32,139 nucleotides of DNA from Deferribacteraceae bacterium (GTDB lineage Bacteria > Chrysiogenota > Deferribacteres > Deferribacterales > JAISNW01). The notes below the pieces were generated by a model, which had not been told where the DNA came from, made no database searches, and was given only the letters and a program-made list of their open reading frames with translations. This document shows, one piece after another, positions 10,250-19,298 of the stretch. The translations under genes and the position numbers were made by a program. Position 1 is the first letter of the stretch. The number at the start of each line of letters is the position of its first letter. The stretch is from contig JAIRQX010000009.1 of assembly GCA_031256375.1 (NCBI GenBank), positions 1 to 32,139 of the forward strand. Reading direction: 5' to 3'.

Positions 10250-10298
10250 GAAAAAAATACATAAGGGGAACGGGGGTGCGTGACCACCCCGTTCCCTT
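10250..10298 (-). terminator. Rho-independent terminator of the argS-to-10371 gene run
   Basis: On the minus strand a GC-rich hairpin (arms 10285-10298 and 10263-10278, core GGGAACGGGGTG pairing with CACCCCCGTTCCC, one bulged base, 6-base loop) is followed after a few bases by a T-run (complement of 10251-10257). It is about 70 bases past the stop at 10371. Confidence 0.75.
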
Positions 10299-10370
10299 CA
10301 TATGACCTCTCAGGTCCTTTCAAGACTTAACCCTTATCGGCATTAATGAGCAAAAACTTTAGAAGTTTTT

Positions 10371-10649
10371 TTATAGCGCTTGCGAGGTCATATCCTCGTC
10401 CTCTCTCAATTCCAGAAAATCCCTGAGTTTCGGGGAGATAAAAAAGCCCGAAAGGTCAAAAGATTTCAGCGCTCCGGCAATAATACCCGTTTTAAAATCA
10501 TCTGAAGATTTTGGGTCAATTATTATTTTATATGTTCCATGATGCAGACAGAGACCGCCTCTGGCAGACGTTTTCTCATACCTGACACGAATACCGAGCT
10601 GTTTCGCCAAATCTTCAAGACTGTGCAAAAGCTGTTTTTTGGGGGACAT
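10371..10649 (-). CDS. Small conserved protein of unknown function
   Basis: The 92-residue product is basic at its N-terminus and acidic at its C-terminus. It carries the line LAKQLGIRVRYEKTSARGGLCLHHGTYKII, interrupted in feel by a likely beta hairpin around ARGGLC, and then FDLSGFFISPKLRDFLELRE. Similar small proteins with an ARGGxC motif are, as I recall, found as uncharacterised neighbours of housekeeping genes, but I cannot name a function. There is no signal peptide, so it is presumably cytoplasmic. It starts 3 bases after the desulfurase stop with GGGGAG upstream, so it is the last gene of that operon, just before the terminator. Confidence 0.75.
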   Translation of the reverse strand: MSPKKQLLHSLEDLAKQLGIRVRYEKTSARGGLCLHHGTYKIIIDPKSSDDFKTGIIAGALKSFDLSGFFISPKLRDFLELREDEDMTSQAL

Positions 10650-10652
10650 CAG

Positions 10653-11876
10653 TTAACCGCTCCCCGCCTGTTGATTATATATCGGAGATATCTGTCTCAG
10701 CTTTTCAACCCCCGCCTTGAGAAGATCAACCGCCCTGTTTACCTCTTCCTCGGTATTAAAACGACCAAAACTAAAACGTATTGTACCGCGGATATCCACA
10801 GGATCAAGTTTCATGGCGGTCAGTACATGAGACGCCATTTCCTGATCAGAAGCGCAGGCGCTGCCGAGGGAACAGCAAATCTGCGGCAAATAACCTATAA
10901 CAGATTCCGCGTCTATATATTTGAACGTTATACTGGATATGGACGGCACGCGAAGCTCAGGATCGCCGTTTGCAACAGTAAACGGTATTTCGTTCAGAAC
11001 CCTTTTTTCAAAAAGATTGCGTAACGACCTTATTCGTGTGTTTTCATCGTATCCGTCCTCCATAATCAGCTCCGCGGCTTTAGCAATACCGATTATATAC
11101 GGCGCGTTTTCAGTTCCAGCCCGCAACCCGTCCTCCTGCGCGCCGCCGTGCATAAACGGGGTCAGCCTCTCTTTAAGTTCCTTACGGACAAATAACACAC
11201 CTATCCCTTTCGGCGCGTATATCTTATGACCGGAAACCGAAAGCATATCAACGCCAAGATCGTCTGTGTCTATTTTTATTTTTCCGACAGCCTGTACAGC
11301 GTCTGTGTGGAAGAGAATATTACGCTCTTTAGCTATACAGGCGGCTTCTTTTATAGGGAAAAGAGAACCCACTTCATTATTTGCCATCATCAGGCTTATT
11401 AATATAGTATCAGGGCGTATGGCGCGTTTCAGATCATAAAGGGAGATCATTCCTTTGCCGTTCACGGGGAGATATGTAATATAGCATCCCTGTTTTTCAA
11501 GGAAATGACACGTTTCAAGTATAGCTTTATGTTCAATGGCGGAAGTAATTATATGTCTGCCTTTACCTTTAAACAGTTCAGCGGTCTGAATAAGGGCGAA
11601 GTTATCCGCCTCTGTACCGCAGCCCATAAATATAATCTCATGCGGGGCGCAGTTAATCAATTTTGCCACTGTCTGCCGCGCTTTGTCAAGGCAGCCGTGC
11701 ATTTCCCGCCCTAAAACGTGCGCGCTGGACGGATTTCCGTAAATCTGTGTGAAATATGGTATCATAGCTTCCGCAACTCTGCTGTCCACTCTGGTTGTCG
11801 CGCTGTTATCAAAATATATAACATCTTTATTATTATCAGTTATGTTGCCGTTTAAGCCGATACCGTTCACCGACAT
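10653..11876 (-). CDS. Cysteine desulfurase (NifS/IscS family)
   Basis: This PLP enzyme takes sulfur from cysteine as a persulfide for Fe-S clusters and tRNA thiolation. Seen are YFDNSATT near the N-terminus, the HTDAVQAVGK region, the PLP-lysine motif SGHKIYAPKG, and the catalytic-Cys loop GSACASDQ. I choose ATG 11876 (MSVNGIG, 407 residues), with GGAGG 11 bases upstream; the longer frame opens only with TTG at 11936 and has a hydrophobic, unlikely start. No IscU, IscA or IscR gene is adjacent, so I leave the choice between nifS and iscS open. It follows the ComFB-like gene and precedes the small ORF 3 bases away. Confidence 0.93.
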   Translation of the reverse strand: MSVNGIGLNGNITDNNKDVIYFDNSATTRVDSRVAEAMIPYFTQIYGNPSSAHVLGREMHGCLDKARQTVAKLINCAPHEIIFMGCGTEADNFALIQTAELFKGKGRHIITSAIEHKAILETCHFLEKQGCYITYLPVNGKGMISLYDLKRAIRPDTILISLMMANNEVGSLFPIKEAACIAKERNILFHTDAVQAVGKIKIDTDDLGVDMLSVSGHKIYAPKGIGVLFVRKELKERLTPFMHGGAQEDGLRAGTENAPYIIGIAKAAELIMEDGYDENTRIRSLRNLFEKRVLNEIPFTVANGDPELRVPSISSITFKYIDAESVIGYLPQICCSLGSACASDQEMASHVLTAMKLDPVDIRGTIRFSFGRFNTEEEVNRAVDLLKAGVEKLRQISPIYNQQAGSG

Positions 11877-11939
11877 ATTGTAGTTATCCTCCGTCTGTTT
11901 ATATACCCCATTTTTTAAGAAAAATAAAACATACAATAT

Positions 11940-12218
11940 TTAATGGTGCGGCGTTTTTTCTACCACAATCATGGCTTTTTTCAACTGTTCAAATATTTCA
12001 GTATCAGATATTTTTTCCTGCGCAGCTACCATATTTTCTTCACACATATAATGCGCGGGAATACTGTTAAGCGTGATCGCGGCGACATCCATCAGGCATA
12101 TTGAACAGGTACAAATATCGTTTATGTTATTGTCGTCCACATATTCGGCAAGCATACTCCAAACGCGTTTTTCATTTACATTCTTTAAATCGTTTATGTA
12201 GTGGTAAAGATTTAGCAT
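11940..12218 (-). CDS. ComFB-family protein
   Basis: The 92-residue protein carries the ComFB signature: CTCSICLMDVAAITLNSI followed by PAHY, i.e. a closely spaced Cys cluster, then Asp-x-x-Ala-x-x-Leu-Asn and Pro-x-x-Tyr. ComFB proteins are named from a Bacillus competence operon, and some members bind zinc and cyclic dinucleotides. A regulatory role is therefore possible here but not shown by the sequence. It sits between ahcY and the cysteine desulfurase, about 20 bases after ahcY, and likely shares their transcript. The Shine-Dalgarno (AAAGAGAT) is modest. Confidence 0.8.
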   Translation of the reverse strand: MLNLYHYINDLKNVNEKRVWSMLAEYVDDNNINDICTCSICLMDVAAITLNSIPAHYMCEENMVAAQEKISDTEIFEQLKKAMIVVEKTPHH

Positions 12219-12239
12219 TTTTATCTCTTTTTGTATAAT

Positions 12240-13499
12240 TTATGTTCCTACCTCCCATGAAGTGAGGTACTTATGCTGTTCTTCCGTCAGGGTATCTATA
12301 TTAAACCCCATTGACGCCAGTTTTGTTGCGGCAATCTCGGTTTCAAGCGCTTCCGGAAGCAAATAAACTTTATTTTGCAGCTTACCTTTGTTTTTAACAA
12401 CATATTCGCAGGACAGGGCTTGAGTTGCAAAGCTCATATCCATAACAGACGCGGGGTGTCCCTCTGCCGCGGCAAGATTAATAAGTCTGCCTTCGCCAAG
12501 CAGATAAATAACCCTGCCATCATTCATATAGTATGCGTTTACAAAATTGCGTATATTTTTTTCCACTTTTGAAGAGGCTTTTTGCAGAGCATCCAGATTT
12601 ATTTCCACGTCAAAGTGTCCGCTGTTGCATATATAGCAGGAATCTTTCATAACTTTAAAATGATGAGCGTCAAGCACATTTGTGTTCCCTGTTACTGTGC
12701 ATATAATTTCCGCCTCTTTAACGGCATCCAGCATAGGCATAACGCGGAAGCCGTCCATGGCAGCCTCTATCGCTTTTATATAGTTTATTTCAGTCACGAT
12801 AACATTGGCGCCGAGACCGCGGGCGCGGTCTGCCAGCCCCCTGCCGCACCATCCGTAACCTGCCACTACAAAAGTCTTGCCCGCCAAAAGTACGCCTGAA
12901 GCCCTGATTATACCGTCAATAGTTGACTGACCGGTGCCGTAACGGTTATCAAACATATGTTTTGTCTGCGCGTCATTTACGGCGATAACGGGAAATTTAA
13001 GAATATTATCTTTTTCCATCGCCTTCAGGCGGATAACGCCCGTTGTTGTTTCTTCCATACTGGCAAGTATCTGTTTGTGCAGTTCAGGGTGCTTTTTTAG
13101 TATTTCGCTTACCAGATCGGCGCCGTCATCCATAGTTATATGAGGGCTGTGGGCGATACCGGACTCTATATGGCTGTAGTATGTCTTGTTATCCTCACCT
13201 TTTATTGCAAAAACGGGAATTTTATAATCTATTACAAGGCTTGCGGCAATATCATCCTGTGTAGAAAGCGGATTTGACGCAACAAGCGCTACTTCCGCGC
13301 CGCCCGCCTGAAGTGCGCGGACAAGGTTTGCCGTTTCAGCGGTAACATGTAGACAGCACGACATACGAAGCCCTGCAAACGGTTTCTCCTTTGCAAACCG
13401 TTCACGTATAGCCGCCAACACAGGCATATCTCTGTCTGCCCATAATATGCGTTTTTTCCCGGCGGGGGCGAGTTTTTCATCTTTGATATCAAATTTCAT
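12240..13499 (-). CDS. ahcY: S-adenosylhomocysteine hydrolase
   Basis: The enzyme splits S-adenosylhomocysteine into homocysteine and adenosine, removing the product of SAM-dependent methylation. The 419-residue length and the C-terminus ending YLTSWEVGT fit the shorter form known from thermophiles and archaea rather than the longer form ending in a KPDHYRY-like tail. Seen are [14 protein letters not shown], the [18 protein letters not shown] substrate region, the NAD fold [20 protein letters not shown], and [15 protein letters not shown] lies before ATG 13499. It is immediately downstream of metK, with 2 bases between, so SAM synthesis and recycling are coupled. Confidence 0.96.
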
Positions 13500-15797: not shown

Positions 15798-16964
15798 TCA
15801 CCTGCAAACGGGCATCATATCGCTTGGTTTGTTCACCGGCAACTGCACAAAACTAATCCCGCCCGCTCTTTTCAGCCGCGCGCATAACAGCCTAAGATCT
15901 TCCGCGCTCACTGCGGTGCGGTTATTGTCAAACAGTCTGACCTGAATCTTAAATACAGTCCCAGCATTATTTTTTGCGGCTGATATACTGTGCCTGCCCA
16001 ACCTTTCCGCAAAATCAAGGAACTCCGTCTTCGTCAGTCCCATCTCTTTTATAATCTGTTCCTGATACATCATAACGGCGAAGTAGTCTATCCCCGCGCC
16101 CCGCAGCATATTCATATCCTGAGCATACCATGAAAGCCCTTTTTCCGGGTAAACGGGGGTTTCATAATAAATATTCACCGCCCATTTCTGTCGCGGGTTT
16201 ATAAGCCTAGCCCCGTAACGTATTTCATATAATAAATCGCTCAGTTTTTCTGATTTCCACTTTATCCATGTCTGATATGCCGCTGTACGGGCGCCGAAAA
16301 CCGGTTTCCTGTCCGGTCCTGCAAAAGATGAGGCAAAAAAAGTATCCGCTGTGCAAGCTATCCCCGTCTCTTTTGTAAACGCGGCGCACGCGCGGGAGTC
16401 AGCCCCTTCATTATACTTTATTATAAAATCATCCTGAATAAGTATTCCGTCCGCACTGCTCGCCGCCAGATCAAAAAAGAGTTTTTTTATGGTTCCCCTG
16501 ACTTCAGGGTTAAATATATTCGCACCGTAACCCGCTACTGTCCCCCCCCCCGGAGAGAAACTCCGGGACAGCGTCACCTCTTTTTTCAGGAAAGAAAGGG
16601 AACGTGTCGCCATCCACGCATATACTTTAATACCGTTAGCGTGTCCCGCCGCAACGGCGTCTTTCAGGATATCCGCTACCACACAGACGTTTTTGCTCGC
16701 AAAATAAACCCCGCCGTCCGGACATGGGTTGGCAAGCCCAAGATGCACACGGTCATTTACATTGTGAAACACACGGAGATAAACAGTATCTGCGCCGCGC
16801 TCTTTAAGCTCTCTGAAAAAGCGGTTTAAATCCCCGTTATATGCGGGGTCTAATACAAAAATCTGCGCTCCGTAAACCGGAGTCTGTTGTTTTTCAACTA
16901 TCTCAACGGCATATACTGTTGCGGGTAAAAACAGCGTCAGCAAAAGCAACGCAATATGCCGCAT
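15798..16964 (-). CDS. Secreted GHL13/PgaB C-domain-like glycoside hydrolase, with G10 tract
   Basis: The 388-residue product has a signal peptide (MRHIALLLLTLFLPATVYA) and then a TIM-barrel-like domain resembling the hydrolase half (GHL13) of PgaB, which cleaves partly deacetylated poly-N-acetylglucosamine. Supporting segments are GADTVYLRVF (about 57-66), ANGIKVYAWMATRSL, ADGILIQDDFIIKYNEG with an acidic pair, the WKSEKLSDLLYEIR region, and YDYFAVMMYQE-like DYFAVMMYQEQI. There is no NodB deacetylase domain. On the coding strand ten consecutive G (complement of 16542-16551) encode Pro138-Gly141. Loss of one G gives TAG after five codons, and gain of one gives TAA about eight codons after the tract, so the gene could switch on and off. 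It lies 7 bases after the SPOR gene. No pga synthesis genes are seen. Confidence 0.75.
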   Translation of the reverse strand: MRHIALLLLTLFLPATVYAVEIVEKQQTPVYGAQIFVLDPAYNGDLNRFFRELKERGADTVYLRVFHNVNDRVHLGLANPCPDGGVYFASKNVCVVADILKDAVAAGHANGIKVYAWMATRSLSFLKKEVTLSRSFSPGGGTVAGYGANIFNPEVRGTIKKLFFDLAASSADGILIQDDFIIKYNEGADSRACAAFTKETGIACTADTFFASSFAGPDRKPVFGARTAAYQTWIKWKSEKLSDLLYEIRYGARLINPRQKWAVNIYYETPVYPEKGLSWYAQDMNMLRGAGIDYFAVMMYQEQIIKEMGLTKTEFLDFAERLGRHSISAAKNNAGTVFKIQVRLFDNNRTAVSAEDLRLLCARLKRAGGISFVQLPVNKPSDMMPVCR

Positions 16965-16971
16965 CGCCGGG

Positions 16972-17634
16972 TTACTCGGCTTTAACTACATTAGGTTTTA
17001 ATGACTTGAATTTTTGTTCCATAGCAGATTTTATTTCCTCAGCCTCCTCTTTTGTTTCAGCGCTGCAACAGCGGGCGCGGAACCAAACCCCTTGTGCGCC
17101 CAGATTAGCGCGCATAACAAATATATCAGGGTACTGCGTCTTATACTTTTTAGCTTCGCTTTTGGCTTTGTTTTCGTCTTTCAATGCAAATAGCTGAATC
17201 TGATATTTCCCTTTTGACGGAGATACAGACGGGATATCATCTTTTGATGTTTTTTGCGTTTGCTGCGCAGGCGCCGGCTGTGCGGATGGTTTAGGAGCTG
17301 GCGTGGATGTTTGTGGTTTCGGCGTTGGCAAAGGCGCCGGCTGTACGGGCGGCTCTACCGGCGGCGGAGCTACCGTAACTGGTTGATCCGCCGAAGGTTC
17401 AGGATCATCGTTTATGTCGTCAGTGTTATTGTCTATGCTGAACCGCACCATACTGTCGTTGTCCGTATCATCCTGAGTTGCGGTTGACGTAAAAACGTTG
17501 CCGCCCAAAAGAAAATTTGTTAGATACACTATACCCGCAACTGTTAACCCGAATGCCAGTACAACAGCCACAATTATCATAATTATCTCTTTTTTTGTTG
17601 TTTTCCCTTTAACTTCTTTATCGTTGTTTTCCAT
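16972..17634 (-). CDS. SPOR-domain membrane protein
   Basis: The 220-residue protein is bitopic: a short charged cytoplasmic N-terminus, one transmembrane helix (about 17-43, IIMIIVAVVLAFGLTVAGI), a long Pro/Thr/Ala/Gln linker (about 75-140), and a C-terminal SPOR domain (about 143-215, KYQIQLFALKDENKAKSEAK, then WFRARCCSAETKEEAEE). SPOR domains bind peptidoglycan strands bare of stem peptides, usually at the division site. CGGAGAT precedes ATG 17634. It lies 23 bases after argS, the kind of neighbour pair seen in several lineages. Confidence 0.88.
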   Translation of the reverse strand: MENNDKEVKGKTTKKEIIMIIVAVVLAFGLTVAGIVYLTNFLLGGNVFTSTATQDDTDNDSMVRFSIDNNTDDINDDPEPSADQPVTVAPPPVEPPVQPAPLPTPKPQTSTPAPKPSAQPAPAQQTQKTSKDDIPSVSPSKGKYQIQLFALKDENKAKSEAKKYKTQYPDIFVMRANLGAQGVWFRARCCSAETKEEAEEIKSAMEQKFKSLKPNVVKAE

Positions 17635-17657: not shown

Positions 17658-19298
17658 TTACATTTTTTCCGGCGCAGATACGCCCAGCAATCCTAACCCA
17701 AACTTTATATTTTTAGCAACTCCCATACACAAATTAAGCCTAGCGTTTGTGCGCTGAAGGTCTTTGTCGTTCAGAATAACAGTATTATAATAATAGCCAT
17801 GGAACTCTCCCGCAAGCTCCTGTAAAAAATATGCAACACTGTGCGGTTCATTATACGCCGCTGCAGTTTCAAGCACATAGCGGAAATCCATCATTTTTTT
17901 AATTATTTTTTTCTCCGCAGGAAGTGTAAGCAACTCAATATTTTCCCCCTGTACCGCCTTTAAACCGCGTTGCGCCGCGGTTGCAAGTATGCTGCACACC
18001 CTTGCATACGCATACTGTACATAATAAACAGGGTTATCAGTACTTTGAGTCTTAGCCAAATCTATATCAAACTCAAACTGCGAGTTTGCTCCACGCATAT
18101 TATAGAAAAAACGCGCCGCGTCAACCCCTGTTTCATCAAGAAGCCAGTCTAAGGTAACAAATTGTCCCGCGCGCGTGGACATAACCAGCCGCTCCCCCCC
18201 TTTTTTCAGACTCACCATCTGCACAAGCGCAACATCAAAACTGCCTTCGCAGCCTAACATATTCAGGGCGCATTCCATTCGTTTTACATATCCGTGGTGA
18301 TCCGCCCCCCACACATCTACAAGAAGATCAAATCCGCGCCTGTACTTGTTGCGGTGGTAAGCTATGTCGGGGGCTAAATATGTATATGAACCGTCCGATT
18401 TTTGTAGCACACGGTCCTCATCATCTCCCATACGTTTTGTTGACAGCCACAGCGCCCCGTCATGAGAGTACACGGCGTTACGCTTATTCAGATCGTTCAG
18501 CGTTTCTTCCAACTCTCCGCCAGTGTAAATAGATGTTTCCTGAAAATAGTTATCCAAATTCACACGGAAACGTTTGAGCGTTTTATCAATATCGGCGAGG
18601 ATTAATTTAATACCCTCTTTTTTGCAGATTTTAACAGCGTCCCCCTCTTCTATTCTGAGAAGTTCGTCTTTATGAGTTTTGCGCAGCTCTTCCGCAATTT
18701 TGGTAATATACTCTCCGTAATAACCATCTCCGGGAAACGGATATTTTTTGCCGTAAAGTTCAAAATATCTGCTGAGTATGCTTGCTGCCAGATTGTTCAT
18801 CTGGTTTCCGGCGTCATTTACATAATACTCTCTATATACACTATACCCGCAGGCTTCCAAAATAGCGGCAATGCTGTCGCCCAGCGCGGCGCCTCTGCCA
18901 TGCCCTACGTGCAGCGGACCTGTAGGATTGGCGCTGACAAATTCCACCATAATTTTTTTCCCTTTGCCTATTTCGCTTTTAAGAGAAGAGTCCGATTTCA
19001 GAAGCTCCGAAAGCCATCGGTGAAAAGCGCTGTCGTTAATAAAAAAGTTCATGAAGCCAGGACCGGCTATTTCAATATGTTTAATATCTTCATGGATAAT
19101 AGTCTCAGCCAGTGATTCCGCAATAGTTTTAGGATTTTTTTTTAAGGTTTTGGCAAGCTGCATAGCCACATTGGTAGCATAATCCCCATGTTCGGGGTTA
19201 TCTGACGGACTTACCGTAAAAGCAAGCTCTTCCTCTTTTATTCCTGAGAACTGTTTATTTACAACCTCAGTTATTATATTCCGTAAATCTGTTTTCAT
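17658..19298 (-). CDS. argS: Arginyl-tRNA synthetase
   Basis: The 546-residue class I enzyme charges tRNA-Arg. The N-terminal Add-1 type domain (about 1-100) is followed by the HIGH-like motif HVGHGRGAALGDS within FVSANPTGPLHVGHGRG. The DVWGADHHGYVKR segment and the KMSK-equivalent VMSTRAGQFVTL follow, and a C-terminal anticodon-binding DALR domain ends the protein (FLQELAGEFHGYYY, ARLNLCMGVAKNIKFGLGLLG). AGGAAAATT precedes ATG 19298. It is the first gene of the minus-strand housekeeping run, and the palindromic repeat copy 2 lies 26 bases upstream. Confidence 0.97.
   Translation of the reverse strand: MKTDLRNIITEVVNKQFSGIKEEELAFTVSPSDNPEHGDYATNVAMQLAKTLKKNPKTIAESLAETIIHEDIKHIEIAGPGFMNFFINDSAFHRWLSELLKSDSSLKSEIGKGKKIMVEFVSANPTGPLHVGHGRGAALGDSIAAILEACGYSVYREYYVNDAGNQMNNLAASILSRYFELYGKKYPFPGDGYYGEYITKIAEELRKTHKDELLRIEEGDAVKICKKEGIKLILADIDKTLKRFRVNLDNYFQETSIYTGGELEETLNDLNKRNAVYSHDGALWLSTKRMGDDEDRVLQKSDGSYTYLAPDIAYHRNKYRRGFDLLVDVWGADHHGYVKRMECALNMLGCEGSFDVALVQMVSLKKGGERLVMSTRAGQFVTLDWLLDETGVDAARFFYNMRGANSQFEFDIDLAKTQSTDNPVYYVQYAYARVCSILATAAQRGLKAVQGENIELLTLPAEKKIIKKMMDFRYVLETAAAYNEPHSVAYFLQELAGEFHGYYYNTVILNDKDLQRTNARLNLCMGVAKNIKFGLGLLGVSAPEKM

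Follow-up and report, generated by a model that had tools for sequence, protein, structure and literature searches.

The G10 tract and its host gene

The window analysed here, a stretch of 32,139 nucleotides from an insect-gut Deferribacterota genome (family JAISNW01/Termitispirillaceae), contains a run of ten G residues within a gene of the GHL13 glycosidase family. The features that bear on this run, its reading frame and the gene neighbourhood are the following:

15798..16964, minus strand: intact coding sequence of a 388-aa GHL13 (PF14883) protein with a PgaB C-terminal domain fold, GH153-like
16908..16964, minus strand: hydrophobic N-terminus MRHIALLLLTLFLPATVYA, a probable signal peptide, read from the sequence by eye
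16542..16551, plus strand: C10 run, corresponding to G10 on the coding (minus) strand
16535..16537, minus strand: TAG stop met upon loss of one base (codon 143)
16510..16512, minus strand: TAA stop met upon gain of one base (codon 152)
16428..16433, minus strand: Asp178-Asp179, invariant in 12 homologues and lost in either frameshift product
16972..17634, minus strand: gene for a SPOR-domain protein, immediately upstream of the GHL13 gene
17658..19298, minus strand: argS (arginyl-tRNA synthetase), the upstream gene of a conserved block

The ten G residues encode Pro138 (CCG) and Gly139-Gly140-Gly141 (GGG GGG GGG) of the open reading frame 15798-16964, exactly where a sequence-only reading of the window had placed them. 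The same reading had predicted a TAG within five codons of a one-base loss and a TAA about a dozen codons after a one-base gain, and the computed frames indeed terminate at codons 143 and 152, respectively. Both shifts abolish the full-length product and remove everything from about residue 143-151 onward, including Asp178-Asp179, while changes of three bases in either direction retain the frame. The tract is a homopolymer long enough to slip and located in a coding frame. It also stands alone, as had been noted, since G/C runs elsewhere in the window reach 7 bases at most; the longest other run of any base is T9, and further tandem repeats in the window are short and weak. Chance alone would place a G/C run of at least 10 in 1-3% of equally long windows.

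The assignment to a GHL13-like family is borne out by a PF14883 match (64.3 bits vs a cut-off of 27) and by the fold. An AlphaFold2 model of the 388-aa product (mean pLDDT 88.5, pTM 0.86) matches best the C-terminal domain of PgaB (4p7q, E 1.1e-21, TM about 0.7); the top eight fold matches are 4p7q and other PgaB structures, 6au1 among them, and the PDB relatives found by sequence are E. coli PgaB structures only. The PgaB C-terminal domain is the founding member of GH153, a hydrolase of deacetylated poly-N-acetylglucosamine (PNAG), and D474 is the proposed catalytic Asp of the Bordetella bronchiseptica enzyme (PMC5933820). Asp178-Asp179 lines up with the HDD segment of the E. coli protein and may include the counterpart of D474. 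Secretion, also proposed beforehand, agrees with the likely signal peptide, a stretch where model confidence is low (residues 8-24). The product is thus probably a secreted glycan enzyme, with activity and substrate predicted from homology. In the model, the residues encoded by the tract form a turn between strands 132-136 and 142-148.

The gene is widespread among relatives, as it was found in 34 of 40 genomes, with near-full-length matches of 33-53% identity, and the order argS-SPOR-GHL13 is kept in Mucispirillaceae loci. At the position of the tract, none of the 29 relatives' orthologues aligned there carries the run; the corresponding loops vary in sequence and length (e.g., SPDGGT or SAEGED), and the orthologues align in frame on either side. 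Among the relatives searched, none belongs to the genus of the window organism. The absence of the tract from orthologues is compatible with a chance origin and a recently arisen switch alike. A GHL13 match was not found in the same-family genomes G001 (76% complete) and G002 (87% complete), and hence, the gene may be dispensable there and cells in an OFF state could live.

Transcription can slip on long G runs, and in principle G10 might act on expression without any change in the DNA, setting the enzyme level through programmed frameshifting, transcriptional slippage or a pause site. We regard this as highly improbable, since both shifted frames terminate within about a dozen codons and the run is not conserved. 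Scans for terminator-like and promoter-like elements around the gene revealed nothing at the tract, and for promoters the outcome was close to that of shuffled sequences (7 vs 5.4).

G/C runs across the genome

The genome is available as a draft assembly of 1,946,024 bases in 128 contigs, in which a pattern search identified 28 G/C runs of at least 8, 8 of at least 9, 4 of at least 10 and 1 of 11 bases. Expectations were derived from four null models (Markov orders 1-3 and a synonymous-codon shuffle) built on about 299 kb of sampled contigs; this sample includes the window, itself picked for having the tract, and the genome-wide counts are independent of the sample. The nulls predict 16-31 runs of at least 8, 3.4-7.7 of at least 9 and 0.75-1.9 of at least 10. 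At the two shorter thresholds the observed counts are in line with every null but Markov order 2, and runs of at least 10 are mildly high (Poisson P 0.007-0.13 across the nulls). A genome-wide count of poly-G runs of at least 8, which the sequence-only reading had suggested as a check, hence favours a special role of the tract through the mild excess at 10 and speaks against it at 8 and 9, where numbers are near chance. The G10 tract is locally rare, and its genome-wide excess is mild at most.

Runs of at least 9 within genes affect a TauE/SafE permease, a DUF2229 protein, the GHL13 protein and an XRE-S24 repressor-like gene. Of the remainder, one directly precedes a HAMP-domain receptor gene, one lies at a CdsA/Dxr junction and two are intergenic, one of these between convergent genes; no glycosyltransferase or outer-membrane switch is among the runs of at least 9 in this genome. 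Runs of 8 are found, among others, in genes coding for SHMT, ribonucleotide reductase, L13, EPSP synthase, RibD, Nuo51, exonuclease VII, thiamine phosphate synthase and FapA, and in a few envelope genes (STT3/PglB, LPG synthase-like, OmpA and NlpC/P60). An enrichment of runs of at least 8 in envelope genes, anticipated for a contingency system, did not emerge: by inspection, housekeeping genes prevail and there is no surface repertoire. Judged in this way, the placement is what incidental runs look like. The view that G10 bears the hallmark of contingency loci accordingly lacks support in this genome, given run counts near chance and runs in housekeeping genes, and the window genome gives no sign of a selected phase-variation repertoire containing G10.

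As a separate observation, the STT3/PglB-type oligosaccharyl transferase gene with a G8 run (L105:898-2970) hints at N-glycosylation in this organism.

Homopolymers are error-prone, and in a draft assembly of 128 contigs the recorded length might be a sequencing or assembly error, the true number of G residues being different. This explanation is very unlikely. The frame stays open for all 388 codons and agrees with orthologues on either side of the run, which needs a length of 10 (or 7 or 13), so that no assembly error is evident in the consensus length, modulo 3; moreover, all four tracts of at least 9 inside single genes (GHL13, TauE, DUF2229 and the XRE-S24 protein) lie in open frames.

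Poly-G tracts in related genomes

The window organism falls into the order that holds Mucispirillum. Within its family, genome G004 agrees in gene and coordinates with record JAISNW010000177 (Deferribacteraceae bacterium Iy174_bin14), and the Iy174_bin14 MAG is placed in GTDB family JAISNW01, an insect-gut clade named Termitispirillaceae (PMC12887300).

Another genome of this family, G001, contains 59 G/C tracts of at least 10 vs about 0.4 expected, with lengths of 10-42 and few runs at 8-9. Many of these tracts (loci L121-L164) reside within or next to genes coding for sulfatase-family proteins, GT92/GT2 glycosyltransferases, B12-radical SAM proteins, FkbM methyltransferase, acyltransferase, GtrII, the restriction system GmrSD and flagellin, and several of the genes are split off-frame. 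Among acyltransferase paralogues with near-identical flanks, the G10 copy is open (L144:3001-3010) and two G11 copies are frameshifted (L146:8525-8535 and L155:3000-3010). The tracts of G001 look like a contingency-locus repertoire. The genome has 14 flagellin matches and resembles that of the protist ectosymbiont Termitispirillum reticulitermitis, for which 15 flagellin copies are reported (PMC12887300); G001 is a probable protist ectosymbiont and may represent this species.

Two further observations concern G001. Members of an 11-member protein family, mostly of about 700-760 aa and with no Pfam match in those scanned, have G/C tracts directly ahead of the gene or close to its start (L137, L140, L146, L151, L152, L153 and L164); this is possibly a phase-variable surface family. 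In addition, L134:2020-4664 and 10255-12899 are identical inverted copies, each made up of an amidase gene and a capsular-synthesis-like gene that carries a G10 tract.

In the Mucispirillaceae, six genomes bear 29-64 tracts of at least 9 each, with a sharp G9 class. G016 (31% GC, single contig) has 43 such tracts, and the 30 loci fetched from it (L194-L223) yield 13 runs of 5, none of 6, 2 of 7, none of 8, 29 of 9 and 5 of 10; as these loci were picked for tracts of at least 9, it is the gap at 6-8 that is informative. The genes concerned include those for MBOAT, GT2, GT9 and GtrII proteins, histidine kinases and an M66 peptidase. Hence, relatives including the Mucispirillaceae, the family of the mouse-gut Mucispirillum, and the probable protist ectosymbiont probably carry large on/off sets of the contingency type, akin to the poly-G repertoires of Campylobacter.

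The same-family genome G003 was rejected as a further case, as several of its tracts of at least 10 are located at the ends of contigs and those assignable to a gene touch ParB or precede an SRP54-type gene. Loss of mismatch repair was likewise discarded as the cause of the tract differences, with MutS-family matches in 16 of 17 genomes, G000 and G001 included. Phase variation is not mentioned in PMC12887300, and the literature searched contained nothing relevant on the topic in Mucispirillum or Deferribacterota.

Incidental run or phase switch

We favour, with moderate confidence, the reading that G10 is a real but mostly incidental, slippage-prone homopolymer. Three GGG glycine codons would have come to lie side by side behind a CCG proline codon by happenstance, in a variable β-hairpin turn; the GHL13 gene is in the ON frame, and polymerase slippage, presumed here together with its rate, would give rise to occasional null alleles by the computed frame effect. 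This reading is preferred over a selected switch because the genome does not behave like a poly-G switch repertoire: run counts are near the nulls, and runs sit in housekeeping genes, unlike dispensable switches. The lack of the run in all 29 orthologues, the variable loop, the position in a turn between strands and the conserved block after argS and the SPOR gene point in the same direction. Against an incidental origin stand the mildly high number of runs of at least 10 and the failure to find GHL13 in two same-family genomes. By analogy, the poly-G tracts of this length class that G001 and the Mucispirillaceae appear to employ also count against it, and so does the product, since a probable secreted glycan enzyme belongs to the usual target class.

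Alternatively, G10 might be a true contingency locus, where slipped-strand mispairing toggles a secreted PgaB-like hydrolase and thereby varies exopolysaccharide processing or attachment. Either single-base shift stops translation before the invariant Asp178-Asp179, the enzyme is probably secreted and runs of at least 10 are in mild excess; the contingency-type repertoires of G001 and of the sister family Mucispirillaceae keep this possibility alive at the level of the order. Yet, runs of 8-9 are about as frequent as chance predicts and often fall into genes of essential type, the orthologues are devoid of the run and the runs of at least 9 include no glycosyltransferase or outer-membrane switch, and therefore, we consider a contingency locus rather unlikely. 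Taken by itself, G10 is a plausible candidate for a switch in one gene. Doubtful as well is the broader, speculative proposal that gut Deferribacterota (Mucispirillaceae and JAISNW01/Termitispirillaceae) share a poly-G phase-variation strategy, with G10 as a young or relict member in a switch-poor lineage; the literature searched holds no report of such a shared strategy.

A lone long G run is best judged against the run spectrum of its own genome. If length variation proved true, simple-sequence phase variation would extend to the phylum Deferribacterota and would help explain why surfaces vary in gut species and in those attached to protists.

Among known systems, PgaB and the GH153 family (PMC5933820; 4p7q, 6au1) resemble the product in fold, in the GHL13 Pfam family and in the Asp pair at the E. 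coli HDD segment. In contrast to PgaB, the protein is a stand-alone domain without the deacetylase half, is about 20% identical, adjoins argS and the SPOR gene and has a predicted substrate only. The poly-G/C contingency loci of Campylobacter and Helicobacter, described, for instance, in PMC8355987 and PMC2823697, share with the window an in-frame G run, truncation upon gain or loss of one base and a probable secreted, glycan-related product; in contrast to these loci, the present tract is known from one consensus sequence, the run count is about that of chance and the placement is that of housekeeping genes. The closest counterpart by descent is the G001 repertoire, which belongs to the same family, uses the same base and overlaps in run length, but differs from the window genome by its 59 tracts of at least 10, lengths of up to 42, the location of many tracts at surface-modification genes, some off-frame splits and no detected GHL13 gene.
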